Below are positions 8,318 to 42,809 of a stretch of 64,000 nucleotides of DNA, piece by piece. The notes under the pieces were generated by a model, which made no database searches, was not told where the DNA came from, and worked only from the letters and a program-made list of their open reading frames with translations. The stretch is from Bradyrhizobium sp. CCBAU 53340 (lineage in GTDB: Bacteria > Pseudomonadota > Alphaproteobacteria > Rhizobiales > Xanthobacteraceae): positions 3,286,001 through 3,350,000 of the forward strand of contig NZ_CP030055.1 of the NCBI RefSeq assembly GCF_015291645.1, in the 5' to 3' direction. Made by a program: the position numbers and the translations under genes. Numbering within the stretch: position 1 is the stretch's first letter; every line of letters starts with the position of its first letter.

Positions 8318-8825
8318 CCGGACCGGACCTCGCCAGCCCGAAACAGGATCCGTTGGAGCTTCCGCCTGACGCCCTCCTTTGAACTTCGAGGGCCATCAAA
8401 GCCGCCGGCGGATGCCGCTGGGTGCTGCCTGGATCGCCATACCTCCGCCGAGGCTGCGCGAGTTCGCGCGCTTATACTCATTTCGCGAAGTGAGTATAAC
8501 GAGCCGCTTTTCAGATAATCGGTCGATGCGCACCGTCGAACATTGCGATCGAGTAGGGCGGTCGATTCGTTCTCTCTCAATCGGTCTCGTGCGCGGCGCA
8601 CATCGAAGCGAGCCCGGTAAGTGATCCAGCTTGATCAGGCCGTTCACAGTCTATTGAGCTGCTTCCTCAAAGACGCCGAGATTGGCGCATTAACGATCTC
8701 GCATCGATAGGCTTGATAGACACGGATCTCGTTGCCGCAACCGATTTTTATTCAGGTTGAATGCGAAGGCGTCTGCCGCTTTTCATCTTGCCGCGCTCGT
8801 TCGCGAGAGTTGAGTGGGGCAGAAA
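8318..8825. other. Intergenic region between fic and the coupling-protein gene
   Basis: About 500 bases without a convincing gene. It should hold the promoter for traG and the trb operon, but no clear -35/-10 pair was found. Confidence 0.4.
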
Positions 8826-10853: not shown

Positions 10854-10865
10854 AGAGCATCCCCG

Positions 10866-11417
10866 ATGAAACCGAAATTGTCGGCCTACGTGTCTGAAAG
10901 TGTGGCGCAGAGGCTCGAGATCGCCGCCAAGCGTCCAGGAGCCAACAAGTCATCCATTGTGGATGCCGCGCTGGATCGCTTTCTCAACCCTGAGCGGGAC
11001 ACGAGCGGCGATGCGGCGCTGATCCGTAGGCTCGATCGCATGAGCCGTCAGCTCGATCGATCCGATCGCGATCTGTCGGTGATGGCGGAGACCATCGCGC
11101 TCTTCATCCGCTACTACTTGACCATCACCCCGCCGCTGCCGTCGCAGGATCAGGATGCAGCGCGAGCGCTCGGCCGCGAGCGGTTCGAGATGTTTGTCGC
11201 CCAGGTCGGCAAACGCGTCGCCTCCGGTGGCCGGCTTGTCGCCGACGTCATGGACCGCGTCAGCGCCGTCAAGCCGGATCTCTTCATGCGGAACATCGAG
11301 GAGGGCGCCCCATTGGGCGCTGCTCAAACTGGCGATACTGGATCCCGCGCGCAGAGCGCGGCGGGTGAGCCGCCGGAGCATCCTCCGGCAGGGCGAGAGG
11401 AGGTCGGCAATGTCTGA
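10866..11417 (+). CDS. Ribbon-helix-helix (CopG-like) protein of the transfer operon
   Basis: A 183-aa protein lying between traG and trbB, as in many Tn4371-like elements. The N-terminal 45 residues (KPKLSAYVSESVAQRLEIAA, then a helix with SSIVDAALDRFL) fit a ribbon-helix-helix DNA-binding fold. The middle contains a helical region with LDRMSRQLDRSDRDLSVMAE. It may regulate the operon or act as an accessory DNA-binding protein for transfer. It overlaps the trbB start by eight bases, implying translational coupling. Confidence 0.75.
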   Translation: MKPKLSAYVSESVAQRLEIAAKRPGANKSSIVDAALDRFLNPERDTSGDAALIRRLDRMSRQLDRSDRDLSVMAETIALFIRYYLTITPPLPSQDQDAARALGRERFEMFVAQVGKRVASGGRLVADVMDRVSAVKPDLFMRNIEEGAPLGAAQTGDTGSRAQSAAGEPPEHPPAGREEVGNV

Positions 11418-12393
11418 TCTCCTCTCGCCAGAAACCCGTGAACGGCGCCGGGGCATGCTGCGGACCGCGATGGGGCCGGCAATTGCGCTCGCTCTGGAGG
11501 AGCCTGATGTCGTCGAGGTCATGGTCAATCCCGATGGAAGACTTTGGCTTGATCGGCACGGAACGGGCCGCGCCAATACCGGCGTTGTCCTGACGCCGCA
11601 GGAGTCCGAGCGGATCATCCGCCTTGTTGCCAGCCATGTGCGGGCGGAAGCGAGCGGTTCGTCCCCAATCGTCTCGGCGGAACTCCCCGAAACCGGTGAG
11701 CGCTTTGAAGGCGTCTTGCCGCCGGTTGCGCTCGCCCCTTGCTTTGCCATCCGCAAGCCCGCAACGACCACGTTCCGGCTATCCGATTATGTCAAGGCGC
11801 AGATTGCCTCGCCATTGATGGCGAAGGTGCTGACCGCCGCCGTCACGGAGGCGCGAAGCATCCTGATTGCCGGCGGCACTGGCTCGGGCAAAACGACGCT
11901 CGCCAATGCGCTTCTTGCTGAGATTGCCGGCCTTGAAGAGCGGGTGGTCATCATCGAGGACACCCGAGAACTGCGTTGCGATGCCAAGGATGCCGTGACG
12001 CTCCGAACCAAGCCGGGCGTCGCGAGCCTTGCCGATCTTGTCCGCTCCACGCTGCGCCTGCGGCCCGACCGCATCATCGTCGGCGAGGTCAGGGGCGCCG
12101 AAGCCCTCGACATGCTGAAGGCCTGGAATACCGGTCACCCCGGCGGGATTGCCACTGTTCATGCCAACTCGGCCCGAGCTGCGCTCTACCGGATCGAACA
12201 GCTCATCCAGGAAGCAGTCGCAACTGTGCCGCGCCGGCTCATCGCCGAGGCAATCGATCTGATCGTCTTCATCAAGGGGCGAGGGCCAGCGCGACGCATC
12301 GAGGCCGTCGCCGAACTCAAAGGTCTCGATCCATCTGGCGACTACCTGCTCGAGACCCCGCCCGGACTTCCAAACACATCCCATCGCCCCTGA
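11410..12393 (+). CDS. trbB: Conjugal transfer ATPase TrbB (VirB11 family)
   Basis: A hexameric traffic ATPase at the cytoplasmic base of the mating channel. 327 aa, normal length. Walker A is GGTGSGKT at residues 155-162. The downstream Asp box and Walker B region (VIIEDTRELRC, IIVGEVRGAEALDML) and the conserved His stretch (NTGHPGGIATVHANS) are all present. The ATG at 11410 overlaps the preceding stop; the longer upstream frame is a shadow. It is the first gene of an unbroken trbBCDEJLFGI set. Confidence 0.95.
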   Translation: MSDLLSPETRERRRGMLRTAMGPAIALALEEPDVVEVMVNPDGRLWLDRHGTGRANTGVVLTPQESERIIRLVASHVRAEASGSSPIVSAELPETGERFEGVLPPVALAPCFAIRKPATTTFRLSDYVKAQIASPLMAKVLTAAVTEARSILIAGGTGSGKTTLANALLAEIAGLEERVVIIEDTRELRCDAKDAVTLRTKPGVASLADLVRSTLRLRPDRIIVGEVRGAEALDMLKAWNTGHPGGIATVHANSARAALYRIEQLIQEAVATVPRRLIAEAIDLIVFIKGRGPARRIEAVAELKGLDPSGDYLLETPPGLPNTSHRP

Positions 12394-12410
12394 CCTCAAG
12401 GAGACTGCAA

Positions 12411-12779
12411 ATGTCCATTCGTCTATCTCTCAAGGTGCGTTCTCGCCTGCGCGGCTTCTGCTCGGTTAGCGGATTGCCGCTGGTCGCGCTCGGTGCAGCG
12501 TCGGCTTGCGTGCTTCTCAGTGTCACGGCGGCACACGCCGCGGGTTCAGGCATGCCATGGGAAGCTCCGCTCGAACGAGTTCTAGAGTCCGTGCAGGGAC
12601 CCGTCGCCAAGATCGTCGCCGTCATCATCATCACAGTGACCGGCATATCTCTGGCCTTCGGAGACACCTCCGGCGGATTCCGCAAGATGGTCCAGGTCGT
12701 ATTTGGCCTCTCAATCGCCTTCGCTGCGAGCTCGTTCTTCCTGTCGTTCTTCTCGTTCGGCGGTGGAGCTCTGATCTGA
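12411..12779 (+). CDS. trbC: Conjugal transfer pilin TrbC (VirB2 family)
   Basis: The major pilin subunit. 122 aa with a long cleavable leader ending near VTAAHAAG (residues 38-46), then two hydrophobic helices (about 65-84 and 95-115) with a GGFRKMVQV loop between them, as in VirB2/TrbC pilins. A strong ribosome site, AAGGAG, lies upstream of ATG 12411. The stop overlaps the trbD start (ATGA). In RP4 TrbC is cyclised; whether this one is cannot be judged. Confidence 0.9.
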   Translation: MSIRLSLKVRSRLRGFCSVSGLPLVALGAASACVLLSVTAAHAAGSGMPWEAPLERVLESVQGPVAKIVAVIIITVTGISLAFGDTSGGFRKMVQVVFGLSIAFAASSFFLSFFSFGGGALI

Positions 12780-13036
12780 TGCGTCCCGATGGTTTTGAGC
12801 TCGTGCTCCACCGCTCGTTGACCGAACCCATCCTGATCGGCGGCGCCCCGCGTGCGGCCGCCATCCTGATCGGGACCCTCTCGGCCGTGCTGGCGCTCGG
12901 CCTGCGCCTTTGGTTCGCAGGCCTCATCCTCTGGGTCATCGGCCACAGCGCGGCCGTCTGGCTTGCCAAACGCGATCCGGCCTTCGTCGAGGTCGCCATC
13001 CGTCACACCAAGCACAAGGGACAGCTCGCATGCTGA
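12779..13036 (+). CDS. trbD: Conjugal transfer protein TrbD (VirB3 family)
   Basis: A short inner-membrane component of the secretion channel, 85 aa. The N-terminus (GFELVLHRSLTEPILIGG) is typical of TrbD/VirB3 and is followed by a membrane hairpin of two segments (about residues 25-42 and 44-62). The start ATG overlaps the trbC stop by one base (ATGA), and the end overlaps trbE by seven bases, so translation is coupled on both sides. Confidence 0.9.
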   Translation: MRPDGFELVLHRSLTEPILIGGAPRAAAILIGTLSAVLALGLRLWFAGLILWVIGHSAAVWLAKRDPAFVEVAIRHTKHKGQLAC

Positions 13037-15594
13037 ACTTGAGAGAATTCCGCGGCAACGCCTATCGGCTGGCTGATTGGCTGCCTTGGGCATGCCTGGT
13101 CGCGCCAGGCGTCATCCTCAATAAGGACGGCAGCTTTCAACGGACGATACGCTACCGCGGACCGGACCTCGACAGTGCGACCGAGGCCGAGCTGATGAGC
13201 GTGGTATCTCGCGTCAACAACGTTCTAAAGCGCCTTGGTTCAGGTTGGGCGCTCTTCTTCGACGCCACACGCATCCCAACTGGCGAATATCCGCGGTCGG
13301 AATTTCCTGATGCGGTGTCGTGGCTGGTGGATGAGGAGCGACGGGCCGGTTTCGAAGGGCCGGCCGGGGTGGCGTGGGAGGATCCTTCACGCCCCGGCGG
13401 GCAGCACTTCGAAAGTGTGCTGCATCTGACCTTGATGTATTTGCCGCCGGCCGAAACGGTCTCGCGCCTCGAAGGCCTGTTTCTGGAGCGTCCCCAGGCG
13501 AGGACTCGCGCGGCTGGGGGACAACGCGCTCGTAGTGGTCAAACACCCAAACCTCATGAGCGCGGTGACATTGACCACGGGGAGACCGACGGCCAACGAA
13601 GATTTGACAGCGACCAGAAAGGCTATCGCGATCATCTCCAAAGATTCATCCAGGAGACCGATCGGGCGATCGATCTGCTCTCGTCAGTCCTGCCCGAGAT
13701 CTGGCCTCTCAGCGATGCGGAGGCGCTCACCTATCTTCATAGCTGCATCTCGACCAAGCGCCATCCGGTCAGCGTTCCCAAGATCCCAGCCTATCTCGAT
13801 TGCTTCCTAAGCGATGAGCCTTTGACTGGGGGATTGTCGCCGGCGATCGGGCGGAGCCATCTCCGCGTGTTGACGGTCCTTGGGTTTCCGCACGTCACCT
13901 TTCCAGGCCTGCTCGATGAACTGAATCGGCTTGGCGTCGCCTACCGATGGGCCACCCGGTTCATTCCGCTCGACCGCACCCAGGCTAACGCGACGCTATC
14001 CCGATACCGGCGGCAATGGTTTGCCAAGCGGAAGTCGCTTGCCGCAATCCTCAAGGAGGTCATGTTCAACGAGCAGGCGGCGCTGCTCGACACCGACGCC
14101 AGCAACAAGGCTCTCGACGCCGACGCGGCGCTGTCCGAGCTCGGCGACGATCTGGTTGCTTTCGGCTATATCACCACGACCGTTACCGTAAGCGATGAGG
14201 ACTCCCATCAGGCTGATGAGAAGCTCCGTGCGGTCGAGCGGGTGATCAATAGCCGCGGTTTCACGGCCATCCGCGAGAGTGTCAACGCCGTGGAAGCCTG
14301 GCTCGGCAGTCTGCCGGGCCAAGCCTATGCCAACATCCGCCAGCCGATCGTCCACACCCTGAACCTCGCCCATATGTGCCCGTTGTCGGCAGTATGGGCC
14401 GGACCCGAACGGTGTGAGCACCTCGACGGCCCGCCGCTTCTGATCGCCAAGACCAAGGGGGCGACCCCGTTCCGGTTGTCGCTCCACGCCGGCGACGTCG
14501 GGCACACCATCATTGTCGGACCTACGGGAGCGGGCAAGTCGGTCCTGCTTTCGATGCTGGCGCTGCAATTCCGTCGATATCCGAATGCGCAGTTGATCAC
14601 GTTTGACAAAGGGCGGTCGGCCCGGGTTACCACGCTCGCATTGTCCGGATCCTGGTATGAGCTAGGTGCCAAAGGGGGCATTGCCTTTCAGCCGCTCAAG
14701 GATGTCGCGGAGGAGGGGGCAAGGCTCTGGGCGCTGGACTGGCTCTGTGGTGTCCTCGCCCATGAGCGCGTGACAGTGACCCCCGAGGTCAAGGAGACGC
14801 TCTGGTCGGCGCTCCGGAGCCTCGGGTCTGCGCCGGTCTCGCAGCGGACGATGACCGGCCTCGTGGCGCTGCTTGCCCGCGACGCGCTGCGGCAGGCGCT
14901 GCAGCCCTACACGCTGGAAGGACCCTACGGCCGATTCCTCGACGCAGACGCCGACCGTCTTTCCGGTGCCGACGTGCTCACCTTCGAGATGGAAGAATTG
15001 ATGGCATTGCCGGGCCTGGTGGCGCCGGTGCTGACCTATCTCTTCCACAGCCTTGAGGACCGCTTCGACGGCCGGCCCACGCTGCTGGTCCTCGATGAGG
15101 CCTGGGTGTTTCTGGATGACCCGCTGTTTGCGAGCCGGATTCGCGAATGGCTGAAGACGCTGCGCAAGAAGAACGTCTCTGTCATTTTCGCGACCCAGTC
15201 GCTGACCGATATCGCCGACAGCCACATTGCCCCTGCGATCATCGAATCCTGCCCAAGCCGCATCTTCCTTCCGAACCCAAGAGCGCTGGAGCCGACCCAG
15301 ACCGAGACCTATCGCCGGTTCGGCCTGAACGACACGCAAGTTCGGCTAATCGCAGAAGCATTCTCCAAGCGCGACTACTACCTGCAGTCCCGTGCTGGAA
15401 ACCGCTTGTTTGAGCTCGGCCTCGGTCCGGTGGCGCTCGCGCTGGTCGCGGCGTCCTCGCCAGAGGATCAACGGGCCGTCGATAGTGTCCTGTCCCGCTC
15501 CGGCCCCCATCACTTCGCCAAGCGCTATCTCGCAGAGCGAGACCTGCACTGGGCAGCGAACCTGATCAGCACCTTCGAACAGGCCAAGGCCTGA
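13030..15594 (+). CDS. trbE: Conjugal transfer ATPase TrbE (VirB4 family)
   Basis: The large secretion ATPase, 854 aa. Walker A GPTGAGKS lies at residues 497-504 and Walker B LLVLDEAW has its acidic pair at 689-690. Later conserved words include FATQSLTDIADS and SCPSRIFLPNP. The N-terminal domain matches the family, but residues about 158-205 form a hydrophilic, Arg/Gly/Asp-rich insertion (ARTRAAGGQRARSG onward) before the conserved helix that resumes at RDHLQRFIQETD. The frame stays open throughout, so this is a tolerated insertion or local divergence, not a break. ATG 13030 lies seven bases inside the end of trbD. Confidence 0.94.
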   Translation: MLNLREFRGNAYRLADWLPWACLVAPGVILNKDGSFQRTIRYRGPDLDSATEAELMSVVSRVNNVLKRLGSGWALFFDATRIPTGEYPRSEFPDAVSWLVDEERRAGFEGPAGVAWEDPSRPGGQHFESVLHLTLMYLPPAETVSRLEGLFLERPQARTRAAGGQRARSGQTPKPHERGDIDHGETDGQRRFDSDQKGYRDHLQRFIQETDRAIDLLSSVLPEIWPLSDAEALTYLHSCISTKRHPVSVPKIPAYLDCFLSDEPLTGGLSPAIGRSHLRVLTVLGFPHVTFPGLLDELNRLGVAYRWATRFIPLDRTQANATLSRYRRQWFAKRKSLAAILKEVMFNEQAALLDTDASNKALDADAALSELGDDLVAFGYITTTVTVSDEDSHQADEKLRAVERVINSRGFTAIRESVNAVEAWLGSLPGQAYANIRQPIVHTLNLAHMCPLSAVWAGPERCEHLDGPPLLIAKTKGATPFRLSLHAGDVGHTIIVGPTGAGKSVLLSMLALQFRRYPNAQLITFDKGRSARVTTLALSGSWYELGAKGGIAFQPLKDVAEEGARLWALDWLCGVLAHERVTVTPEVKETLWSALRSLGSAPVSQRTMTGLVALLARDALRQALQPYTLEGPYGRFLDADADRLSGADVLTFEMEELMALPGLVAPVLTYLFHSLEDRFDGRPTLLVLDEAWVFLDDPLFASRIREWLKTLRKKNVSVIFATQSLTDIADSHIAPAIIESCPSRIFLPNPRALEPTQTETYRRFGLNDTQVRLIAEAFSKRDYYLQSRAGNRLFELGLGPVALALVAASSPEDQRAVDSVLSRSGPHHFAKRYLAERDLHWAANLISTFEQAKA

Positions 15595-15623
15595 CCTCAA
15601 TCTCAACTCTTGGAGTCTCTTCC

Positions 15624-16376
15624 ATGCTCGAAAGTGTCGGCCGCATGTTCTTGGGTACAACTTCTAGAATTATCGTAACAACGATACTATCGATGGCCAT
15701 CGCCGTGAATGGTTCGAGGCGGCTTGGCGCGTTTGATATCGTATTCGATCCTACCAACTACAGCCAGAATCTCCTGACTGCCGCACGAGCGCTTGATCAG
15801 ATCAACAATCAGATCAGGAGCCTCGAGAACCAGGCGCAATCGTTGCGCAATCAGACAAAGAATCTCACAGCCTTGCCGACGAGCGTCGTTGGCCAACTCA
15901 CGTCGACGATCAACCAGATGAACACTCTGATTGGTCAGGCCAAGAACATTTCGTTCGATGTTCAGAGAACCCAACAGGATTTCGAGCGGCTGTATCCTCG
16001 TCAATACGCGGCAGCCGTTTCGTCCGACAAGATGGTTCAGGACGCGACCTCGCGCTGGGACAATAGCTACGACGGGCTGAAGCAGTCGCTCACGCTTCAG
16101 TCTGCAATCGTTGGCTCGTTGGATCAGGACGGCCAGACGCTTCGATCGCTAATGGCGAATTCGTCCGCTGCGGTCGGCTCGCTACAAGCCCAACAGTCTG
16201 GCAATGAATTGCTCGGCCTCCAGATCAAGCAATCGTTGCAGACCCAGGCTCTCATGGCGACGCAGGCGCGTGCGGACACGTTGCGTGCAGCCGAACAGCA
16301 GGCATCGTCCGCCGCCGCGAAGGAGCGATTCAATCGCTTCATCGGCGATGGCCATGCCTATACCGGCGGCAAGTAA
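15624..16376 (+). CDS. trbJ: Conjugal transfer protein TrbJ (VirB5 family)
   Basis: A periplasmic, mostly helical protein needed for pilus assembly and mating contact. 250 aa. The conserved start of the mature part, DPTNYSQNLLTAARALDQIN, is seen near residues 42-62, and Gln/Asn-rich coiled helices follow. The hydrophobic leader (IIVTTILSMAIAV) is present, but the signal peptidase site is less clear than usual, because NGSRRLGAF replaces the normal Ala-x-Ala region. Only 11 bases separate it from trbL, where many relatives carry a trbK entry-exclusion gene. Confidence 0.88.
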   Translation: MLESVGRMFLGTTSRIIVTTILSMAIAVNGSRRLGAFDIVFDPTNYSQNLLTAARALDQINNQIRSLENQAQSLRNQTKNLTALPTSVVGQLTSTINQMNTLIGQAKNISFDVQRTQQDFERLYPRQYAAAVSSDKMVQDATSRWDNSYDGLKQSLTLQSAIVGSLDQDGQTLRSLMANSSAAVGSLQAQQSGNELLGLQIKQSLQTQALMATQARADTLRAAEQQASSAAAKERFNRFIGDGHAYTGGK

Positions 16377-16387
16377 GTGAGGGCGCC

Positions 16388-17548
16388 ATGGCCGATCTCT
16401 CCGTCATTGACCGGTTCACCGACACCTTCTCGCGCTACATCGACTCCGGATTTGGCCTACTGTCCGGCGATGTCTCATTCTTGAGCTCAACGTTGATCGG
16501 CATCGACCTGACGCTGGCGGGACTTGCCTGGAGCATGCGGGCGGACGACCACATCATGGTCACGCTCGCCAAGAAGGTGCTTTATGTCGGCGCTTTCGCG
16601 TTCATTATCGGCAACTTCAAGAACCTTGCCGATATCGTCTTCTCGTCCTTCTCCAGCATCGGTCTAAAGGCGGCCGGCGGGAGCTTGAGCGCGGCCGACT
16701 TGGCGCGGCCTGGCTTTGTCGCTTCCGCCGGGTTCACCGCCGCCCATCCACTTCTGGAGGAGACCGGGCAATTCTCTGGGTTTGATGTCCTGACCAACCT
16801 GCCGACGATCCTGATCCTGCTGTTCTGCTGGATCCTGATTGTGCTCGCGTTCTTCATCCTCTCGGTGCAGCTCTTCGTCACGCTGATCGAGTTCAAGCTC
16901 ACAACGCTTGCAAGCTTCATCCTCGTGCCGTTCGCCCTGTGGGGAAAGACTGCGTTCCTCGCGGAAAAAACCCTCGGCAACGTGGTTGCCTCGGGAGTGA
17001 AAGTGATGGTTCTCGCAATCATCATCGGCATCGGTTCGACCATCTTCGGTCAGCTCGCGAGCACGTTGACGAAGCCAGTCGACATCGTATCGGCCATGAG
17101 CTTGTTGCTGGCCGCCCTTTCGCTGTTCGGTCTTGGCATCTTCGGCCCAGGAATCGCGGCAGGACTGGTCTCAGGTGCACCCCAGCTCGGCGCTGGAGCG
17201 GCCGCCGGAACGGTGGCGGGCGCGGCGGCTGTCGTGATCGGCGGCGGAGCGGCAGCCGCCGGAGGCTTGCGCCTTGCGGCGGGCAGCTCAATGACCGCGG
17301 TTCGCTCCGCAGCATCGCTCACAGGGGCGTCTTCGGCCGCCGGCACATCAGCCCGGGCCGCAGTGGATCAGCTCTCGAGTGCGGGTACTGCCGGCGCGGC
17401 GACCGGAGCACCGGCGTCAGGCGCAGGGCGTGCAGCAGCGCCGGCAGGACGCGGACACGCGAGGGAAGCGGCACAAGTTGCAGCTCACACGCTGAAAGAG
17501 GGCGACAAGGGTGGGCATTCGTCGGGCCCGAAGCTGGGGGAGGAGTAG
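16388..17548 (+). CDS. trbL: Conjugal transfer protein TrbL (VirB6 family)
   Basis: A polytopic inner-membrane channel component, 386 aa. At least five hydrophobic segments lie between residues 25 and 270, including a very long one around ILILLFCWILIVLAFFIL. The last 110 residues are Ala/Gly/Ser-rich and low in complexity, as usual in TrbL. It starts at ATG 16388, and trbF follows four bases after its stop. Confidence 0.92.
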   Translation: MADLSVIDRFTDTFSRYIDSGFGLLSGDVSFLSSTLIGIDLTLAGLAWSMRADDHIMVTLAKKVLYVGAFAFIIGNFKNLADIVFSSFSSIGLKAAGGSLSAADLARPGFVASAGFTAAHPLLEETGQFSGFDVLTNLPTILILLFCWILIVLAFFILSVQLFVTLIEFKLTTLASFILVPFALWGKTAFLAEKTLGNVVASGVKVMVLAIIIGIGSTIFGQLASTLTKPVDIVSAMSLLLAALSLFGLGIFGPGIAAGLVSGAPQLGAGAAAGTVAGAAAVVIGGGAAAAGGLRLAAGSSMTAVRSAASLTGASSAAGTSARAAVDQLSSAGTAGAATGAPASGAGRAAAPAGRGHAREAAQVAAHTLKEGDKGGHSSGPKLGEE

Positions 17549-17551
17549 GAT

Positions 17552-18256
17552 ATGGCAGCCCACCCCTTTCAGCGCGTGTCCGTCCGCTATGGCGAGACGC
17601 CAGAGCCGGTCACGCCTTATCAGAAGGCAGCCCAGGTCTGGGACGAGCGGCTCGGATCCGCCCGTGTTCAGGCCAGCAACTGGCGGCTGGCAGCGCTGGC
17701 AGCCATCGGCCTGTCCAGCGTCCTCGGATTGACGATTTTCACCCAGATCGCTCGCTCGGGCGTCGTTCCCTACGTGGTCGAGGTCGATCGGCTCGGTGAA
17801 GTCCGAGCAGTCGGGCCAGCGCTCGAGGCCTACCAGCCGTCAGACGCGCAGATCGCGCATTTTCTTGCGCGATTCATCGAGAACGTCCGCTCGCTGTCGA
17901 TCGATCCGGTCATCGTTCGTGCGAACTGGTTGCGCGCCTATGACTTCGTCACCGACCGTGGGGCGCAAGCCTTGAACGATTACGCGCGCGAAGCCGATCC
18001 GTTCACGAAGATTGGCTCCAAGACCGTGACCGCCGAAGTCACGTCCGTGGTGCGCGCGTCCGGCGACAGCTTCGAGATCCGCTGGAAAGAAAACACCTAC
18101 GAGAATGGCGCAATCGCGAAATCCGAGCGTTTCACGGGTCTCGTCACCACCGTTCTCAAGCCGCCGGCGGATGCCGAAACGCTGCGGAAGAACCCCCTCG
18201 GGCTCTACGTCCATTCCCTCAACTGGTCGCGCGACCTCATCGGAGACGCCAAATGA
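17552..18256 (+). CDS. trbF: Conjugal transfer protein TrbF (VirB8 family)
   Basis: A bitopic inner-membrane scaffold protein, 234 aa. It has a short cytoplasmic N-terminus with TPYQKAAQVWDERLGSAR, one membrane helix (about residues 45-65), and a periplasmic VirB8-like domain ending in the typical LGLYVHSLNWSRDL. It overlaps trbG by four bases (ATGA). Confidence 0.93.
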   Translation: MAAHPFQRVSVRYGETPEPVTPYQKAAQVWDERLGSARVQASNWRLAALAAIGLSSVLGLTIFTQIARSGVVPYVVEVDRLGEVRAVGPALEAYQPSDAQIAHFLARFIENVRSLSIDPVIVRANWLRAYDFVTDRGAQALNDYAREADPFTKIGSKTVTAEVTSVVRASGDSFEIRWKENTYENGAIAKSERFTGLVTTVLKPPADAETLRKNPLGLYVHSLNWSRDLIGDAK

Positions 18257-19278
18257 ATTCCAAAGCCCTCACCAAGCTCGCGTCGGCCAGCGCCGTTGCC
18301 TTGTCGCTTGGGCTTGCCGGATGCGCCACCAAGCTCAATCTCGAAGCGCCCTATGATGAGATGACATTTGAAAAGGCCCTTCCAGAGAGCGATTCGCCGG
18401 CGCCGGTGCAAGTCGTCGAAACACCCAAGGTCCTGCCGTTGCCTGGCCAGCTGAAGCCTCTTCCGACGAAGGCAGCCAAGGAGGAGAAACTGCCGCCCGA
18501 GCAGGCGATCGCGAAAGCGAACAAGGCCGCGCGGATGGAGCCCACACGCGCCGGGTATATCAACGCCATCCAAGTTTATCCCTGGACAGAAGGAGCGCTC
18601 TACCGGCTTTATGCAAGCCCGGAGAAAGTCTCAACCATCGCGCTGCAGCCGGGCGAGGAACTGATCGACGTTTCCACGGGCGATACGGTTCGCTGGGTCG
18701 TCGGCGATACATCAAGCGGGCAGGGGAGCTCGCGGCGCGTGCATATCCTGGTCAAGCCAACGCTTCCGGACATTCAGACCAACCTCGTGGTGCTGACGGA
18801 CCGGCGCGCCTATCACCTCGAGCTCGTCTCGACCAAGCAGACCTACATGGCGTCCATCTCATGGACGTATCCGACTGATACGCTCGTCGCTCTTCACAAG
18901 CAGAACGCCGCCGCCCAGCAGGCCGAAGAGAGGATCGCCGATCGCGGGGTGCGGCTCGACAGCCTGAATTTCCGCTATCGCATCGAAGGTGACGATCCTC
19001 CGTGGCGGCCGGTGCGCGCTTTCGATGACGGCCGCAAGGTCTATATCCAGATGCCGTCCGGCCTGTCGCAAGGCGAAGCGCCGCCTTTGTTCGTTGCCGG
19101 AGCCGATGGCCGGCCAAACCTCGTCAACTACCGGGTCCGCGGTTCCTACTACATCGTCGATCGGATGTTCGGCGCCGCTGAGCTTCGCCTTGGCGAAGAT
19201 CCTCAGCGCATCGTCCGGATCATCCGCATCGACGCGCGGCCGGTGTCTCAGATCTTCGGTACCGGGAGCGCTTCATGA
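18253..19278 (+). CDS. trbG: Conjugal transfer lipoprotein TrbG (VirB9 family)
   Basis: An outer-membrane core component, 341 aa. The signal peptide ends in a lipobox LGLAGC, with the acylated cysteine near residue 24. The VirB9-like domain follows, with YPWTEGALYRLYASPEKVS and the C-terminal KVYIQMP and YYIVDRMF words typical of this family. It overlaps trbF and trbI by four bases each. Confidence 0.94.
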   Translation: MNSKALTKLASASAVALSLGLAGCATKLNLEAPYDEMTFEKALPESDSPAPVQVVETPKVLPLPGQLKPLPTKAAKEEKLPPEQAIAKANKAARMEPTRAGYINAIQVYPWTEGALYRLYASPEKVSTIALQPGEELIDVSTGDTVRWVVGDTSSGQGSSRRVHILVKPTLPDIQTNLVVLTDRRAYHLELVSTKQTYMASISWTYPTDTLVALHKQNAAAQQAEERIADRGVRLDSLNFRYRIEGDDPPWRPVRAFDDGRKVYIQMPSGLSQGEAPPLFVAGADGRPNLVNYRVRGSYYIVDRMFGAAELRLGEDPQRIVRIIRIDARPVSQIFGTGSAS

Positions 19279-20576
19279 CGACAGGGTCGGATCAGGATCC
19301 GGAGCCGCTGGAACTGCGGGCACGGCCGCGGCCCGTGCGGCGCCTCAACAGGCGTGCGCTCATGATCGGCTGCGCTGTTGCTGCGCTGTTCGTCGGCGGA
19401 GCGATACTCATTGCGCTCAAACCAAATTCCTTCAAGCAGTCTGGGCGAACAGAGCTGTACAACACCGACCGCAAGCAGACCGCCGAGGGGCTGAGCAAGC
19501 TGCCAAAGTCCTATGAGGAGTTGCCGCTATCGACGCCGCGGCTTGGACCGCCATCGCCTGGGGACATTGGCCGGGCCTTTGCTGAGAACGAGAAGAAGGC
19601 TGGCGTCGCGCCGGACGCTGGCTTCCGAACCAATCCGGAGGAAGACGCCGAACGGGCTGAGCGGATCCGCCAGACGCGAGTCGCTCAGCAGGCAAAGGAG
19701 TCGGGCTTGTTCGTCCGCTTGTCGGAGAAGCAGGAGAAGCGGAAGCAGACAAGCACGACCGAAGCAGCGGCTGCTGCTGCCCCATCCGCATTCCGGCCTT
19801 CCACGCCCGACACAGGGCCATCTGCTGCGGAACTCGCAAAGACTGCGCAGGCAATGATCGACCGATCCAGCGAGATCATCCCCTCGTCGCAGGCGCGAAA
19901 GCTTGCCTTCGTGGGAGCGAAGGCCGATACGGAGACCACGAATCCCCATGCGCTCAAGCCGGCGCCATCGCGCTATGCCGTGATGGCGGGGTCCATCATC
20001 CCGGCTAGTCTCGTCACGGCGCTCAACTCCGACCTGCCAGGGACCACCATCGGTCAGGTCACCGAGAACGTCTACGACACGATGACAGGCGAGCATCTCC
20101 TAATCCCCCAGGGGACAAGGATCGTGGGCAAGTACGACAGCGTGGTCGCTTTCGGTCAGAAGCGGGCGCTAGTCGTCTGGACGAGACTCATCCTGCCGAA
20201 CGGGAATTCGATCGTGATCGAGAACCTTCCGGCTACAGATGTCGCAGGCTATGCCGGGCTCGAGGACCAGGTGGATTTCCATACCTGGCAGTTGCTCAAG
20301 GGAGTGGCCCTTGCGACCCTGATTGGGGTGGGGACACAGCTATCGATCGGCAACGACGAGAGCGATCTCGTTAAGGCGCTGCGAGAAAGCACCCAACAAA
20401 CGACCAATCGCGCCGGCCAGCGCCTGGTGGAGCGCGAGCTCGACGTGCAGCCGACGATCACGGTGCGGCCGGGTTGGCCGTTGCGGGTGATTGTTTCGAA
20501 AGACTTGGTGCTGAAGCCTTACCAGGACGCTCAGACAATTGCCCAGGACGTTCAGACAATTGCGAAGGGCAGGTGA
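19275..20576 (+). CDS. trbI: Conjugal transfer protein TrbI (VirB10 family)
   Basis: It spans inner and outer membranes and gates the channel. 433 aa: a short cytoplasmic N-terminus, one membrane helix (about residues 30-48), a charged and Ala/Pro-rich periplasmic linker, and the conserved C-terminal beta-barrel domain from about residue 235 (YAVMAGSIIPASLVTALNSD; later LLIPQGTRIVGKYDS). DUF2274 follows after three bases. Confidence 0.95.
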   Translation: MTTGSDQDPEPLELRARPRPVRRLNRRALMIGCAVAALFVGGAILIALKPNSFKQSGRTELYNTDRKQTAEGLSKLPKSYEELPLSTPRLGPPSPGDIGRAFAENEKKAGVAPDAGFRTNPEEDAERAERIRQTRVAQQAKESGLFVRLSEKQEKRKQTSTTEAAAAAAPSAFRPSTPDTGPSAAELAKTAQAMIDRSSEIIPSSQARKLAFVGAKADTETTNPHALKPAPSRYAVMAGSIIPASLVTALNSDLPGTTIGQVTENVYDTMTGEHLLIPQGTRIVGKYDSVVAFGQKRALVVWTRLILPNGNSIVIENLPATDVAGYAGLEDQVDFHTWQLLKGVALATLIGVGTQLSIGNDESDLVKALRESTQQTTNRAGQRLVERELDVQPTITVRPGWPLRVIVSKDLVLKPYQDAQTIAQDVQTIAKGR

Positions 20577-20579
20577 AAG

Positions 20580-20807
20580 ATGAAGCTTGCGAAGCTGCCT
20601 GATCGGACGCCCGTGAAGATGAACGTTGTATTTACGCCAAGCCTGGCACAGAGGCTGCGCGAGTATGCTGCGTTCTATGCAGAAACCTACGGCAACAAGG
20701 AGGAAGTAGCTGAGCTGATACCGTTCATGCTCGAGGCATTTCTCGATGGCGATGCCGATTTTCGAAGGAGTAGGAGATCGGCGGCCACAGACATCGCACC
20801 ACCTTAG
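20580..20807 (+). CDS. DUF2274 protein following trbI
   Basis: A 75-aa protein of the kind that regularly closes trb operons in these elements. It contains LPDRTPVKMNVVFTPSLAQRLREYAAFY and a predicted ribbon-helix-helix-like layout (a strand, then two helices), so it may bind DNA. The molecular role is not established. It starts three bases after trbI and is clearly part of the operon. Confidence 0.82.
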   Translation: MKLAKLPDRTPVKMNVVFTPSLAQRLREYAAFYAETYGNKEEVAELIPFMLEAFLDGDADFRRSRRSAATDIAPP

Positions 20808-22468: not shown

Positions 22469-22635
22469 TCTTGCCTCCGAATAAGGAGGGGTTCCATGGA
22501 AGAAACCGGCTCGCCGCGATCAAGAGCCGCTGAAATGTCCTCTTTTTTGTCCCCTAAGTGTTTTGTCATAACCATAATTATATCAGATAGATACGAAAAT
22601 TTCACCCAGGAAGTTGAGCCGATCAAAGTCCTCAT
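22465..22635 (-). CDS. Possible small protein upstream of the 201-aa gene
   Basis: A 56-codon frame from an ATG (MRTLIGSTSW onward) that ends in a four-base overlap (TTGA) with the next gene on the same strand. The composition is protein-like (KFSYLSDIIMVMTKHLGDKK), and the same frame stays open upstream. No family is seen. Coupling to the downstream start is the main argument for it. Confidence 0.3.
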   Translation of the reverse strand: MRTLIGSTSWVKFSYLSDIIMVMTKHLGDKKEDISAALDRGEPVSSMEPLLIRRQD

Positions 22636-22754
22636 AAATGTCCACCTTTCAAGAGGTTGAAGAACTCCAATCTTCGCCAATACATTGAAATTGTTCTCAA
22701 AATGTTCTTTAGGTCTACCCTCCGCCCCAGATGGTGAGTCGAAACAATCGGTCC

Positions 22755-25700
22755 ATGTCTGACGAACAACTTCATCCGCCGGCAAGCTGGGACAAATTCG
22801 AGGAGATCTGCGCCGATCTCTTTTCGCGCATTTGGAATGACCCAGAACTCGTTCGTTACGGGCGAAGCGGCCAGCGGCAAAAGGGTGTCGACATATACGG
22901 AAAGCCAAACGGCGCCGACGCCGGCGTTCAATGCAAAGGAAAACGCGTTTGGCCGCCGACGAAGCTAACAATTGCGGAAATTAATGCGGAGATCGAAGAA
23001 GCCAAGAAATTCCGTCCTGCGCTCAAGACCTACATTATCGCAACCACCGCTGATAACGACGTCGCCGTCACTGACCACGTCAATGCGATTTCCGAGAAAC
23101 ATGCGGAAGAGGGGCTTTTCCGCGTAACTGTCTTCGGCTGGCGTGAGCTCACGCGCCGCATTGATGATTTTCCTTACCTAAAAGAAAAGCACTTCGATAT
23201 TATCACGCTTCGGCAAATGAAGCGCTCAATGCCGGACGAGATTGCCGAGCGTGTTGTCGAAGGATTGAAAAACGCAAATATCGTCATTCCTGCCGGCGTG
23301 GATCATGCGACGCAGCCCAAATCCACTATTCTTGATGAAGGCCTCGCCGAAGCAATCGAACGTGATGTCGCGCACCGCTATGAGCGAGCCCTTCAACGTT
23401 CCATCTTCCCTGAGTTAAGCAAACAGGATGAATTGGCGCAGCTTGCGGTCGAGATCATTGACAGCAAGGGCTCAGCCCCGTCATCCGGACTACGGCGCAC
23501 CATCTTACTGCGAGCCGCAAGGTCCGCCGCCGCTCGCGGCAATCTGATAAATGCGCGCAGTTTTTTGACCGCCGGCCAGAACCTTTCAGGCGCCGATTCC
23601 GACGCGCCAGCCCGCGCGCGCCTCGCAGTCGCCGAAGGCAACATCAATGAAGCGATTCAGATATTGCGCGACCTCTCCGACGCGGATTCGCGCTCGGTTC
23701 TTTTAAGCATTCTGGCAAAGGACCGAGGCGAAGATCAGGCTGTCGCTTGGATGACCGAGAACAAGGTGTCACCCGCGCAGCTAACCGCCTTGGGCATTTT
23801 TACTCTCTGCACGATCTACCTGAAGAAGGGGGACCTGGACTCCGTCAGTCGAGTTCTGGCTCAAGTGACGCCGGCGCAGTTCAAAGAGCTTCCCTATTTG
23901 CATTTTCTGAGGGGGGCCATCAGTTTCACGCGGCTGCTGCCGGTAACGGAACAGGCAACAGCCCTCAGCGGCCTCCCTCTGGATGTGCGCAACGCGCGGC
24001 CCGTTATAGGTGGGCAGGAACTTTCCGTCATCCTCGATGCCGCGATCGACGACTTTCGCGAGGCTCTTCCCTACGCCATAACCCTCAGCCTCACGCATGC
24101 CCCGCGGCTTATTCAGTTTTATATCAGATGGTGCGAGTTATTACATCCGACCCGTAAACAAGCCGCGCTCGCGCAGCTTCGCAGCGACATGGAGGACAAC
24201 GCGCGCGCAGTCGCCAATGTGCAATATGCGTTTGCCTATCTCGATGGCTATTCGCCAGCAGCACTCGAAACCTATCTTCAGCGCCGCGACGCTCTCGGTG
24301 GATTGAACGATGACGAACTCCGCGCCGCGTTTGTCATAAGCTTGAACAAGAATGACGCGTCCGGCCTCGCTTCGCTGATCGCCGCGAAGCGCCAGCAAGC
24401 CGAGGCCTCGTTTGGCAAAAATGGCATTCTTTCGCTTGAAATTCAGGCGCTCGCAAAAAGTGGCGATGCGACGTCGGCGAAAATAGTCCTCGAAGACAAT
24501 CTCGAGCTCTTCGATTCGGGCCAAGTCGCTAGCTTTCGCGCGGAGATCGCGAAAGCGGAAGGCGCCGATCCGGTCGCCGAACATTTGCGTCTCTATGAAA
24601 AGGAGAAGACGCCCGAAACTCTACGGGCACTCGTCGACGTCCTCGTTTCAAAAAAGGACCATGTCGGCATTGCCAAATACGCCAAATTGCTGTTTGCCGC
24701 GACCAAAGATCCGCGCGACATCGCACTGGCCGCGGAAGCCGAAATGCGCGCCGGGCTTGGTGACGATTTCGTCCGCACATTTGAGCTCAATCCTTCCTTG
24801 CAGGATCATCCGCCGTTCCTGCGATACTACGCATGGCAGTTGTTTCGCCTCGGCCGGGTGCGTGAAGCGAAGGCGATTACAGAACGTATCGAGAAGAACG
24901 ATGCGGCACATCGCGATCTGCAACTCGAAGCCGCGATCGCGATCGAAACCGGCGAATGGGAATCGCTCGCGGGTCCATTGGCGGCTACACTTGATCCCTC
25001 ACAGGACTCGAACGGCCTCACACTCATCCGCGCTGCCCATCTCTCGCAGGCGTCGAGCCAAGGGCCGCTGATGGATCTTATTGCCGCCGCCATCGCAAAG
25101 GGCGGTGACGACCCAAATGTCCTGCTGGGCGGTTACTTCCTCTATGTCGAACAAGGGCTCGAAGAGGAGCGCGCGGAATCGCACGAGTGGTTCCGAAAGG
25201 CGCTTGCCCTTTCCGGCCCCGACGGGCCACTTCAATCCTTTGAGATCAAGGATCTTCTCGCGCAGCAGACGGATTGGGATCAGCACACGCGCTTCGTTAG
25301 CGCGAAGGTGGTTGCGGGTGAGTTTCCGCTTGCGGTTGCTGCGCCAGGTTTGCGAACAACCTTGGTCGATATCGTTCTTCGAAATCTGATCCGCAATGCC
25401 GCGATGACTGATGCCCGGCGAAAGGTCGCTCTGCCACTCTTTGCCGGCAACCGGCTTCCGACGCCCCCTGGCCTGACGACGTCCCTTGCGCTGGACATCA
25501 CGGCGCTCCTTGTGCTCGGCTGGCTCGGCATCCTGCCCCTGATCCTCGCGACTTTCCCCAACGTCATTCTGCCGGGCGGTGTCTTTGCGGAACTCTTCGA
25601 AGGACGACGTCGGATACGCCGCGGACAAAAGACGCGGCTGCGGAAGTCAATCGAAATACGCGAGGCCATTGCGAAGGGGCAGATCAAGGTCTTGCGTTCG

Positions 25701-27017
25701 CCGGCCCTCGTCCAGGATGCCTTGACCGCCGAAATTGGCGTTGAGCTCAGCGCGCTCCTCCGCGAAGCAAAAGCAGCAGACGGAATCGTTATCCGGCCAG
25801 CGCCGATTGCGCGTGTTGGCCTCGCAGAGACCGGCGACGCTGACATGAGCGCTCATGAGGATCGCTTGTCCGACATGCATAGCCTGCTGAAAGTGTTGGC
25901 TGATCAGAATGCAATTGATGAAGAGGCGGAGAAGTCTGCCAAGCAGTATTTTGGTCTTCAGGACAAGATGTGGGCTTCATCAGCGATACCTGACCCCGCG
26001 CGCCCGGTTTACCTGGATGGCTTAGCCCTCGCTTACCTGCAATATACCGGCCTGCTGCCCGCGTTTCTCCGTACATTCTCCGACGTTTACATCCATCAGT
26101 CGACTGAGGAAGAAGCCAACGCCTTGATCGAAGACGATCTGAACGTAGCTGAAGTGTTCCGCATCATCGACGATATTCGCTCCGCTGTACGGCGAGCCAA
26201 TGCGGCCGGACATGTTACGTTCGGAGCCCGACGTGCGCAGGCCAATGAGAATGATTTCGATGGCATGCAATCAAGTTTGAATCTGATTTCGGACCTGACC
26301 GATGTCGATGCTGTCGCCATCGACGATCGTGCTCTAAATAAGGAGCCCTTCGCGGCAGATACCGCTGGGCGCCGTGCGCGCTTGGTGACGACGCTGGACC
26401 TGATCGAAGAGCTCCGTACTCGCGGTGCGCTGACTGAAGAGCGATGCCGGGCGTTGCGCTACCGCCTGAGATCGGTCGGCGCCATGTTAATGCCAGTCAC
26501 GGCCAGCGAACTCGCGGCCGCCGCCAGACGTAATCGTCAGAACGAGGCTCCCGAGTTCAAGGCCATTCGCGATAGCCTTGATTTGGCACGGGTATCGGAG
26601 ACGCCACAATTTCCCGGCGAAATGCGCTGGTTCATGAGCTACGTGCAGGCAACTCGTATCTCTATCGCGCGCATCTGGAATGAAGAACCCGACGAGCAAC
26701 GCGCACGGATACTCGCGACAGCTATCTTCAATATGCGGATCGTCCCAGAAGACTGGCTCGGTCGTTGGGGCGATCATCCACCTTCCAATTGGGTGGACGC
26801 CGTCCGAAGCGCTTTGCTTGGCGGATTCGCGGTACCGGTCGAAATTGGTGACGACGACAAAATCGCGGCCTACCAAAAGTGGCTCGATGACGTCGTAATG
26901 GCCGATATCCGCTCCCTATCACCTGAACTCTATCAGAGGGTGGTCATCTATCTACGAAGCTTTGCGCTCACACCGTGGAGCAAGGACGAAGAAGATGCGG
27001 GGGACGAAAATGAATAG
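22755..27017 (+). CDS. PD-(D/E)XK nuclease - helical repeats - tandem PIN-like modules (giant defence-type protein)
   Basis: 1420 aa. The N-terminal 150 residues look like a restriction-endonuclease fold, with E16/E17 (KFEEICADLF), D46 (KGVDIYG) and Q59-x-K61 (VQCKGK). Residues about 200-900 are Ala/Leu-rich helical repeats of TPR type (for example YKLLFAATKDPRDIALAAEA-like units). Two similar PIN-like segments follow, near residues 910 (LALDITALLVLGWLG) and 1087 (VYLDGLALAYLQYTGLLP), each with an Asp at the strand end and a Glu after a second strand. ATG 22755 is preferred over 22731; neither has a strong ribosome site. Its stop overlaps the next start by eight bases. A role in phage or plasmid defence is inferred from the domains and the location. 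Confidence 0.7.
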   Translation: MSDEQLHPPASWDKFEEICADLFSRIWNDPELVRYGRSGQRQKGVDIYGKPNGADAGVQCKGKRVWPPTKLTIAEINAEIEEAKKFRPALKTYIIATTADNDVAVTDHVNAISEKHAEEGLFRVTVFGWRELTRRIDDFPYLKEKHFDIITLRQMKRSMPDEIAERVVEGLKNANIVIPAGVDHATQPKSTILDEGLAEAIERDVAHRYERALQRSIFPELSKQDELAQLAVEIIDSKGSAPSSGLRRTILLRAARSAAARGNLINARSFLTAGQNLSGADSDAPARARLAVAEGNINEAIQILRDLSDADSRSVLLSILAKDRGEDQAVAWMTENKVSPAQLTALGIFTLCTIYLKKGDLDSVSRVLAQVTPAQFKELPYLHFLRGAISFTRLLPVTEQATALSGLPLDVRNARPVIGGQELSVILDAAIDDFREALPYAITLSLTHAPRLIQFYIRWCELLHPTRKQAALAQLRSDMEDNARAVANVQYAFAYLDGYSPAALETYLQRRDALGGLNDDELRAAFVISLNKNDASGLASLIAAKRQQAEASFGKNGILSLEIQALAKSGDATSAKIVLEDNLELFDSGQVASFRAEIAKAEGADPVAEHLRLYEKEKTPETLRALVDVLVSKKDHVGIAKYAKLLFAATKDPRDIALAAEAEMRAGLGDDFVRTFELNPSLQDHPPFLRYYAWQLFRLGRVREAKAITERIEKNDAAHRDLQLEAAIAIETGEWESLAGPLAATLDPSQDSNGLTLIRAAHLSQASSQGPLMDLIAAAIAKGGDDPNVLLGGYFLYVEQGLEEERAESHEWFRKALALSGPDGPLQSFEIKDLLAQQTDWDQHTRFVSAKVVAGEFPLAVAAPGLRTTLVDIVLRNLIRNAAMTDARRKVALPLFAGNRLPTPPGLTTSLALDITALLVLGWLGILPLILATFPNVILPGGVFAELFEGRRRIRRGQKTRLRKSIEIREAIAKGQIKVLRSPALVQDALTAEIGVELSALLREAKAADGIVIRPAPIARVGLAETGDADMSAHEDRLSDMHSLLKVLADQNAIDEEAEKSAKQYFGLQDKMWASSAIPDPARPVYLDGLALAYLQYTGLLPAFLRTFSDVYIHQSTEEEANALIEDDLNVAEVFRIIDDIRSAVRRANAAGHVTFGARRAQANENDFDGMQSSLNLISDLTDVDAVAIDDRALNKEPFAADTAGRRARLVTTLDLIEELRTRGALTEERCRALRYRLRSVGAMLMPVTASELAAAARRNRQNEAPEFKAIRDSLDLARVSETPQFPGEMRWFMSYVQATRISIARIWNEEPDEQRARILATAIFNMRIVPEDWLGRWGDHPPSNWVDAVRSALLGGFAVPVEIGDDDKIAAYQKWLDDVVMADIRSLSPELYQRVVIYLRSFALTPWSKDEEDAGDENE

Positions 27018-28935
27018 GCCGAACCTCACGCCCGCCGAACTCGCGCGATACAAGGCTATGTTCGCCTTGCGTCGTCTCGGTTCCACGCTACAAAGCGATG
27101 TACTGGCGGATGGAGCCGTCGCCCGCGAGTCCGGTATCGGAATTTCAAACCCAGTTCATTTACCCGATGGCGTTAGCCTCGATCGCAATAGCCTTTTTGA
27201 CGCTTTTCAAAAGGCGACCGACGGTGAGGCGATCCCATCACTCAAGGATACGGACGGCGCCGAACGCAGCCTTAAGCTCGAAATTCAGAATGGAAATGGT
27301 GTTCTTTCTTACGGAACGAACCGTATTGCGTTTCCCCAAGCTGCGCTGCTCTCTAAAAAAATCGACACGCGGCAGGCACTCCTCACTGGGGCTTTGAAGG
27401 GCAACACGCTGACCCAACACGCTGCGGAACAGCTCAACGCGATCGTTAGCAAGCCGGATTATTCACAAACTGATTTTTTCGCCGCGCGCAAGATTTTGGG
27501 TGGCGCCCCGGAAAGTTTTGCGACCGGCCTCCATGAAGTCGCCCGCAACAAAGGCGAACTCTCGCAGGACGACCTTCTTCCTTCCGAACCATCGCATTGG
27601 GAGAACCTCGCTGCGGCTCACAGGGCATCCCAACAGCTCGCCGATTTTGTCAGTTGCGAGCTTGCCGCGGAACGCTCCAGGCGTATCTCCCAAGATCCTA
27701 TTGCCGCCATCGATACCATTTCATTGAGCTTCGGAAGCTCAGAGATGGTTCCTTTCGAGCTTATGCGGACAATCCATACGGATGATCTGCTGTCCAGTCT
27801 GCGAGCGCTGATTGAGCTCTCCGACCCTGTTGCACTAACGGGTGCGTTTGAACTGTGTGCGGATCGAGCCGCGGACGATCAGCGGCTGATCGAGATGGGC
27901 AGTGCTTTGCTTGACCGGTTGTTGAACGACCCAGCGCGCCTTCTTCGCGAGCTTGAGACTTTTGCAACGGCGTTTGTCATAGCGACCGCCCATCTTGCTG
28001 AGCACGAAGACTTTCGCACGAAGCCGGTCTTCTGGCGTCGAGTTGTCGCAGCTGCGCATGCCTCCCTTGTGGCGCGAGTCCTGGGTAGCTCGCCAGATGA
28101 CAAGAGTTCGCTCTTGAATTGGGCGATACGAATTCGCGGCAAAGCCTACTATCTTTCGATCGTGCACGACGCTTATACCGGGGCCCGCTGGCGCGCTGAC
28201 TGGATCACTCCTGACCATGTAGCGGCAGATCTCTACGGCCGCCTCCTTGGCGCCCTACAGAAAATGGGAGATGCTGTGCCAGAAGTCTGGCGCGACAAAA
28301 TCAAAAGTGCAGAGCGTTCTATCTTGAAGGATAGCTTGCCTCTGGCGCAGTCGTTTCCATCCCTGCTCCAAGGTGCAGCGCCAAGCGCGGAAAGGCCTCC
28401 GATAGCGACCGATGTGGGCCGCATGTATGCTGAGTTCATAAGTGAGCCGACGCTCGAGAAATTTCTCTACTTCATTCCCATCGTCTATGCTTTTGGCTTT
28501 TCGGCCGATGCCCGCAACGCCGTCCTCAGCACGATCCAGATGCTCCGGGAAAATCTGTCAACGACTCCGCCGGAAATGGCGCAGGCGGCTCTCGGCCTTG
28601 CGGCCATGATTGCGGCTCAAAACCGCGACGTCGAGATCGCCGATACTGTCACTATGGTTGCCGTCGAGCGCGTTGCATTCGATCAGGGTGTCGATGTTCT
28701 GTTGTGGACCGTGACGACACTCGTAGAATGCGCAGCTGCACGGACCGATCGTAAGGAGGCGCTCGCCGCCTTAGCTCGGCGACTGGAAAACCTAGCCTTC
28801 GTAGCGCCGACCAAGTTCCTTGAAGAAGCGGTCGATGCCTTGCGAATTCTCCAGTCCTTGGATCGGGAGCTGGCAGTATGGCTCGGACGGGCGATTGCAA
28901 CGGCCCGGCTAGGATTGTCTAGCTCAGCGAATTGA
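27010..28935 (+). CDS. Unrecognised 641-aa partner of the nuclease-PIN protein
   Basis: I recognise no domain. Residues 1-130 look mixed alpha/beta (NRPNLTPAELARYKAMFAL at the start). From about residue 200 to the end it is strongly helical with many Ala/Leu/Glu, possibly HEAT/ARM-like repeats. No Walker motif, nuclease motif or membrane helix is visible. ATG 27010 lies inside the end of the preceding gene (eight-base overlap), so translation is coupled and the two proteins probably work as a pair. Confidence 0.75.
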   Translation: MNRPNLTPAELARYKAMFALRRLGSTLQSDVLADGAVARESGIGISNPVHLPDGVSLDRNSLFDAFQKATDGEAIPSLKDTDGAERSLKLEIQNGNGVLSYGTNRIAFPQAALLSKKIDTRQALLTGALKGNTLTQHAAEQLNAIVSKPDYSQTDFFAARKILGGAPESFATGLHEVARNKGELSQDDLLPSEPSHWENLAAAHRASQQLADFVSCELAAERSRRISQDPIAAIDTISLSFGSSEMVPFELMRTIHTDDLLSSLRALIELSDPVALTGAFELCADRAADDQRLIEMGSALLDRLLNDPARLLRELETFATAFVIATAHLAEHEDFRTKPVFWRRVVAAAHASLVARVLGSSPDDKSSLLNWAIRIRGKAYYLSIVHDAYTGARWRADWITPDHVAADLYGRLLGALQKMGDAVPEVWRDKIKSAERSILKDSLPLAQSFPSLLQGAAPSAERPPIATDVGRMYAEFISEPTLEKFLYFIPIVYAFGFSADARNAVLSTIQMLRENLSTTPPEMAQAALGLAAMIAAQNRDVEIADTVTMVAVERVAFDQGVDVLLWTVTTLVECAAARTDRKEALAALARRLENLAFVAPTKFLEEAVDALRILQSLDRELAVWLGRAIATARLGLSSSAN

Positions 28936-42786: not shown

Positions 42787-42809
42787 GGCGAGATACCTGG
42801 AATTCAGTA

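Follow-up and report, generated by a model that had tools for sequence, protein, structure and literature searches.

What might a protein that carries a DNA-cutting and an RNA-cutting type of domain in one chain do together with a large partner encoded by an overlapping gene? The question is raised by a two-gene operon, gene A and gene B, in the 64,000-nucleotide stretch of Bradyrhizobium sp. CCBAU 53340 analysed here (contig NZ_CP030055.1, positions 3,286,001 to 3,350,000 of the forward strand; hereafter the window), which lies on a 7.74-Mb contig of an 8.72-Mb genome. A preliminary description had proposed the pair as a candidate antiphage defence system of undescribed architecture. Judged by its domains, the pair is the two-gene, double-PIN form of a conflict class that has already been predicted, and not an unknown system. 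As to its role, we lean towards the reading that A and B are the two chains of a single conflict (defence) system, which would form a branch within the predicted TPR-GreAB-C-PIN class. The joining of DNA- and RNA-cutting domain types in a single chain, as stated in the preliminary description, was borne out, since an Mrr-type head and the PINs both lie in A, and so was the eight-base overlap of the two genes (27010-27017). The operon is composed as follows.

22755..27017, plus strand: gene A, 1420 amino acids (aa); effector head, helical body, HTH, PIN1, PIN2
22755..23249, plus strand: predicted Mrr-type PD-(D/E)XK effector domain, A residues 1-165, with E16, D46, Q59 and K61
23337..25154, plus strand: helical, weakly TPR-like body of A, residues 195-800, start of the constant region
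25245..25454, plus strand: HTH_upst_double_PIN (PF24407), A residues 831-900, with 51.4 bits against a cut-off of 27; the model shows helices here
25467..25808, plus strand: PIN1, A residues about 905-1018; D914 kept; RP and no acidic pair after the last strand
26010..26354, plus strand: PIN2, A residues about 1086-1200, with D1088, D1190 and D1191
27010..28935, plus strand: gene B, 641 aa; a small beta-alpha module, then a helical solenoid
27166..27294, plus strand: match to Permuted_GreAB-C (PF24388), B residues 53-95

The open reading frame (ORF) of gene A begins either at ATG 22755 (1420 aa) or at an alternative ATG 22731 (1428 aa) and ends with the stop codon TAG at 27015-27017; of the two possible starts, 22755 is the one found in close relatives. 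As 136 homologous proteins were found at E ≤ 0.001, the likeness of gene A to other genes is not due to chance; homologue counts below refer to the 120 listed of these 136. The N-terminal head of A is predicted to be an Mrr-type PD-(D/E)XK nuclease with an E-D-QxK site. Across 93 rows, comprising the window protein and the 92 of the 120 listed homologues that bear a restriction endonuclease (REase) head, E16 and D46 are each kept in 92 and Q59 and K61 in all 93. A more diverse set of 16 rows keeps D46 and Q59 throughout, E16 in 15 and K61 in 14. These four residues of the motif claimed in the preliminary description were thus upheld; position 17 is D or E in 81/93 rows but in only 9/16 of the diverse set. 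The Mrr_cat score of the window head is 12.6 bits, below the Pfam cut-off of 21, and the relative L031 exceeds that cut-off with 25.3 bits.

Comparison of the homologues indicates that this head is exchangeable while the rest of A is constant. Besides the 92 REase heads, the 120 listed homologues have 10 Cap4-like, five alpha/beta hydrolase, two DUF4062-like and two SMEK (SMEK_N) heads and one head outside these types, and eight proteins are without an N-terminus; Pfam was run on the heads of examples only, the other rows being typed by likeness of their first letters or by precomputed domains. The Pfam cut-offs of 27 and 26.3 were exceeded by SMEK in P0112, with 120.9 bits, and by the hydrolase in P0035, with 28.2; DUF4062 in P0100 (20.6, cut-off 24.7) and Cap4 in L013 (21.2, cut-off 26.2) stayed below them, and the heads of P0098, P0099, P0102 and P0104 had no Pfam match. 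By BLAST, all ten Cap4-like heads were similar to that of L013. Among distant members, HNH-like heads were recognised by eye in P0170, P0175 and P0181, and the Methylophaga relative has what looks like a membrane-type N-terminus. On a FastTree phylogeny of the constant region (113 rows, namely the window and 112 of the 120 homologues, the eight lacking an N-terminus being excluded; no label shuffles or support values), the six head types require at least 10 changes, and the DUF4062-like rows have their nearest REase rows at 0.16 and 0.20 substitutions per site.

The domain type of residues 1-165 also recurs in other fusion proteins. A related REase head is found in a large protein with a STAND-type NTPase match (L029, genome G630) and in a 1040-aa protein that adjoins restriction genes on an Enterobacter hormaechei plasmid (L075); from these two proteins, the head would be a widely shared effector cassette. 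Aligned by hhalign with the two Mrr_cat genes present in the window, it gave weak results, the second gene aligning as expected at a probability of 25.

The helical body that follows the head resembles TPR repeats weakly: TPR_19 reached 15.2 bits in A (Pfam cut-off 25), TPR matches were below cut-off in the scanned relatives too, and a precomputed TPR_4 is recorded for the listed homologue P0037. PADLOC and NCBIfam gave no match for A or B at E ≤ 1, and Pfam no GreA/B-C domain in the A chain at E ≤ 1. At the C-terminus, the claim of two similar PIN-like modules holds, with a correction concerning the site of PIN1. PF20698 (PIN-TPR-GreABC) matches A residues 1086-1154 with 33.3 bits (cut-off 27.8) and is matched nearly full-length, with 41.7 bits, by the relative L010; a profile of PIN1 matches one of PIN2 at a probability of 92 (E 5.6e-7), which places D914 on D1088. 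After the last strand, PIN2 carries D1190-D1191 whereas PIN1 has RP. D1088 and D1190-D1191 are invariant in PIN2 (17/17 diverse rows), and D914 is kept in 60/60 closer rows and in the diverse rows save one that ends there. E946, E1119 and E1120 have an acidic counterpart in 60, 56 and 55 of the 60 closer rows, respectively, whereas several divergent rows have lost it. Because the acidic pair is kept in PIN2 and missing in PIN1, PIN2 is likely a nuclease, and from its kept acids likely a ribonuclease (RNase), and PIN1 is probably a degenerate copy. The AlphaFold2 model of A residues 800-1420 (60 rows; mean predicted local distance difference test score (pLDDT) 88.3, predicted template modelling score (pTM) 0.80) has two successive strand/helix alternations, at model positions 111-214 and 286-389, and to this extent structure prediction is compatible with the PIN folds that had been claimed.

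The partner protein had been described as being without any recognisable domain, which is corrected here by a faint match to a domain of a transcription factor. B, which starts at ATG 27010, matches PF24388 with 26.0 bits in the Pfam search of the protein and with 30.3 bits in a six-frame search of the genome (cut-off 27), and the relative L070 reaches 27.7 bits. In the AlphaFold2 model of B (38 rows; mean pLDDT 88.0, pTM 0.86), strands at 48-51 and 55-58 are followed by a helix at 59-70, three strands within 89-108, and helices to the end. An order of two strands, one helix and three strands fits a small FKBP-like domain such as GreA/B-C. Comparison of B with a single-gene TPR-PIN protein by hhalign gave no useful match.

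B lies directly 3' of A in seven of eight loci on genome contigs, the exception being L009 (Afipia), which has a truncated A and no B; A is split into two ORFs in L011 and ends at the contig end in L012. In a class sample of 385 genomes, full A was present in three and B in the same three, a fourth A row being the REase domain alone. In a genus sample of 195 genomes, A was matched in 24, seven of them with most of the constant region and 17 with the head alone or short pieces, and B in 10, which are the same seven plus three with a truncated B (G608, G687, G711), that of G711 adjoining an A remnant. These counts are lower bounds because the search scores few candidates per genome, and G629 and L007 probably stand for one genome. 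PF24407 was found in 3/199 genomes of the order and 4/299 of the phylum, the genome studied here counted. Two expectations attached to the preliminary description were thereby borne out: B is conserved beside A, and their homologues are sporadic at the level of order, class, genus and phylum.

In some relatives, A and B are joined in a single ORF (G563, G580, G660, G716, G822, P0177-P0180, P0090 and P0104). The phylum sample holds three more long PF24407 ORFs, of which that of G822 matches A and B, that of G878 (1946 aa) A only, and that of G913 (2065 aa) neither profile. The pair is also present on plasmids, where its genes overlap by 8 bases in Methylophaga thalassica and by 4 bases in Agrobacterium fabrum (two records of equal length and coordinates). 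Adjacency in seven of the eight loci, co-occurrence in the sampled genomes and fusion in some relatives together indicate that A and B are a conserved pair and belong together. In addition, three loci, L027 (G632), L028 (G587) and L045 (G714), have stretches 84-90% identical to the window, starting at window positions 22467-22474 and holding only the head end of A; by this likeness they are decayed copies of the module. Upstream of its A-B pair, Bradyrhizobium iriomotense (L006) encodes a second REase-head protein of 475 aa (7110-8534, minus strand).

Three features of the surrounding DNA bear on mobility.

8814..20576, plus strand: conjugation region adjoining the operon, with trb genes and a coupling protein of the VirD4/TraG type
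1547-3523: DUF3363/relaxase-type gene, upstream of the operon
22481..28910: extent of the module shared with B. iriomotense L006 at 85%

Within window positions 18-34 kb, B. iriomotense otherwise shares one 446-base piece at 33.5 kb, and its 85% copy sits among other neighbours. B. australiense shares the trb stretch with the window (86% over 12317-20753) and has its own A-B pair after it, with 70-78% identity. The Agrobacterium pair has an integrase, an HsdR-N-type protein and a SIR2 protein among its annotated neighbours.

Sporadic occurrence, mobility and a swappable head fit a gene pair with a role in defence. Following the published model of the class and the anatomy of the two proteins, A-B is most likely an abortive-type defence system. 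A and B would form a complex that is held inactive in the healthy cell, and B, by means of its Gre-like piece, would sense or dock on RNA polymerase that an invader has disturbed. PIN2 would then cut RNA, PIN1 might position the substrate, and the effector head would give the killing blow, here by cutting DNA, with abortive infection as the outcome.

Several results weigh against our interpretation. The 50 PDB rows that Foldseek listed for the C-terminal model of A include neither a PIN chain nor a match at E ≤ 0.001; the PIN fold of the preliminary description is therefore a prediction from Pfam, topology and tandem homology. PDB searches with the PIN profiles, with the REase profile and with the Gre profile of B gave no convincing match to a solved structure, the PIN profiles matched neither the single-gene PIN nor a genomic PIN in hhalign, and the B model had helical repeat proteins only among the Foldseek matches listed, which leaves the Gre fold without support from fold search. 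The pairing, too, has cases in which no B is recognised: in G100, the ORF after the PF24407 protein (1502 aa) encodes 799 aa and matches neither B nor Pfam; A but not B is matched by P0181, by P0182 and by the ORF of fused length in G878; and a 2125-aa Nostoc protein combines REase and constant region, its last 679 aa having no match to B. The preliminary description had further held that the location on a mobile island favours defence. Conjugation genes do adjoin the operon, but the flanks of the relatives are poor in PADLOC matches: 110 proteins flanking 13 A-B loci yielded 11 PADLOC models with one member each (E ≤ 1e-10), by name probably two proteins, and two integrase domains, and are mostly ordinary genes. 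As known defence genes are this rare in the flanks, the defence-island argument is weak in general, and the idea that such pairs generally sit in dense defence islands was rejected. Finally, experiments on any member of the class were not found in the open-licence literature.

How far could other explanations account for the pair? It is unlikely, in our opinion, to be a toxin-antitoxin module in which A would be the toxin (as RNase and/or DNase), B would neutralise it, and addiction would maintain both on mobile elements, protection being incidental. The overlapping genes near conjugation or integration genes would suit such a module, as would the truncated B without intact A in G608, G687 and G711, as if B outlived A. 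However, A remnants without a B match also exist (G632, G587), the effector head varies while the rest of A is constant, and the fusion of A and B in a single chain in several relatives would be unusual for a toxin and its antitoxin. Fusion of the chains and swapping of heads also argue against plain restriction of a Type IV-like kind, in which the Mrr-type REase would act on modified or foreign DNA and TPR, PIN and B would only regulate or recognise. The REase site kept in 92-93 of 93 rows and the related REase heads in other fusions would be expected in that case, but the REase is the very part that is replaced, even by non-nuclease domains, and the acids of PIN2 are kept; we rate this explanation slightly lower than the previous one. 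The poorest prospect of all is a host RNA-processing or stress factor with no role in conflict. The flanks of relatives are mostly ordinary genes, which would leave room for such a factor; sporadic occurrence speaks against it, with full A in 3/385 class genomes, most of A in 7/195 genus genomes and remnants elsewhere, and so does the B. iriomotense copy, 85% identical among other neighbours.

Transcription-coupled restriction would be a further possibility, to which we give little credence, slightly less than to Type IV-like restriction. Here B would dock the complex on RNA polymerase via its permuted Gre-like piece, PIN2 would cut the transcript there, and the tethered, interchangeable head would attack the transcribed template. 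If this were true, the invader would be chosen by its transcription state and not by DNA sequence or modification. The parent class is itself a published prediction of immunity acting at RNA polymerase. This prediction becomes testable with so compact an operon, in which the partner is separable, one PIN is intact and the other degenerate, and the head is swapped in nature. The operon lets one ask which of the two chains is the sensor, which of the nucleases does the killing, and whether there is real contact between the Gre-like piece and RNA polymerase.

A phage origin of the pair was rejected, there being no relative in viral contigs and a single record, matching the REase domain only, in the phage collection. 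Neither the gene at 28946, which the preliminary description had listed as a third gene, nor the 554-aa gene at 29676 has a counterpart in the other loci examined (tblastn, E ≤ 1e-4); the former exists as an ORF, and both were rejected as parts of the system. Window positions 28946-29649 hold a 62-codon ORF starting with TTG that shares an ATGA overlap with a 172-aa ORF (29131; weak DUF5677), which may represent a coupled pair of genes or a single gene that is broken. Ten neighbours in the window were tested against PADLOC, and the three that match are a Fic protein and the two Mrr_cat genes. The latter are adjacent (41683-43784), the first bearing an ATPase domain (PF01637), match the PADLOC models PDC-S02, mREase_IV and PDC-M36A, and are a second candidate defence pair in the region. 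Within the conjugation region lie a phospholipase-type gene resembling Tle1 of the type VI secretion system (3590-6187, minus strand) and the Fic/SoFic gene (7060-8229, minus strand). Further downstream, a 308-aa protein (32343-33269, minus strand) has a weak Csx1 match (E 0.00066) and an RNKFAH stretch that is, by eye, reminiscent of HEPN RNases.

How does the pair compare with known systems? The architecture can no longer be called undescribed, as dedicated Pfam models, a named relative (P0170) and the parent class are on record. Kaur et al. 2021 (PMC8195603) predicted the TPR-GreAB-C-PIN conflict system. Its constant core consists of TPR, GreA/B-C and PIN, its head is EAD10 or any of 13 further domains, REase among them, and its genes are mostly standalone with few conserved neighbours. 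In their proposal, RNA polymerase is engaged through Gre and the transcript is cleaved by PIN as it is extruded, the head serving as a fallback killer. A-B resembles this class in its variable N-terminal effector, its helical (weakly TPR-like) repeats, a putative piece of the GreA/B-C type and a C-terminal PIN; the effector is exchangeable here as well, and the PIN is of the PF20698 type. In the published form, a single gene encodes GreA/B-C and one PIN within one chain, whereas there are two genes here, A holds an HTH and two PINs, and the Gre-like piece is permuted and lies in B, sharing a chain with A only in the fused relatives. Nor is the gene mostly standalone, B being beside A in 7/8 loci. 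The available text of PMC8195603 contains no mention of a two-gene form, of fusions or of a degenerate PIN.

PF24407 and PF20698 are matched by A of the window, and PF24388, near or over its cut-off, by B; these are single-domain models, from whose names alone one would not learn of an A-B operon, of fusions or of a PIN1 that has lost its site. P0170, a member of the double-PIN family by its constant region (E 1e-201), carries the database name 'TPR-GreAB-C-PIN type conflict system protein'. In the same genus, two REase-TPR-PIN proteins encoded by single genes (L056, 1334 aa; L057, 1316 aa) share a related REase head and helical start and match PF20698 with 67.1 and 73.0 bits; unlike A, they have one PF20698 stretch and no PF24407, and no B match was found by hidden Markov model within 1.3-1.7 kb past the gene. 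DS-5 of DefensePredictor (PMC13092281) likewise consists of two proteins, with the PIN and the partner both essential, and differs in that its partner has DUF5830 and an AcrIF4-like domain. Since the Gre-like piece is not in the same chain as in the published definition, and PF24407 stands upstream of two PINs as in the double-PIN branch of Pfam, A-B is filed with that branch rather than with the published single-gene form.

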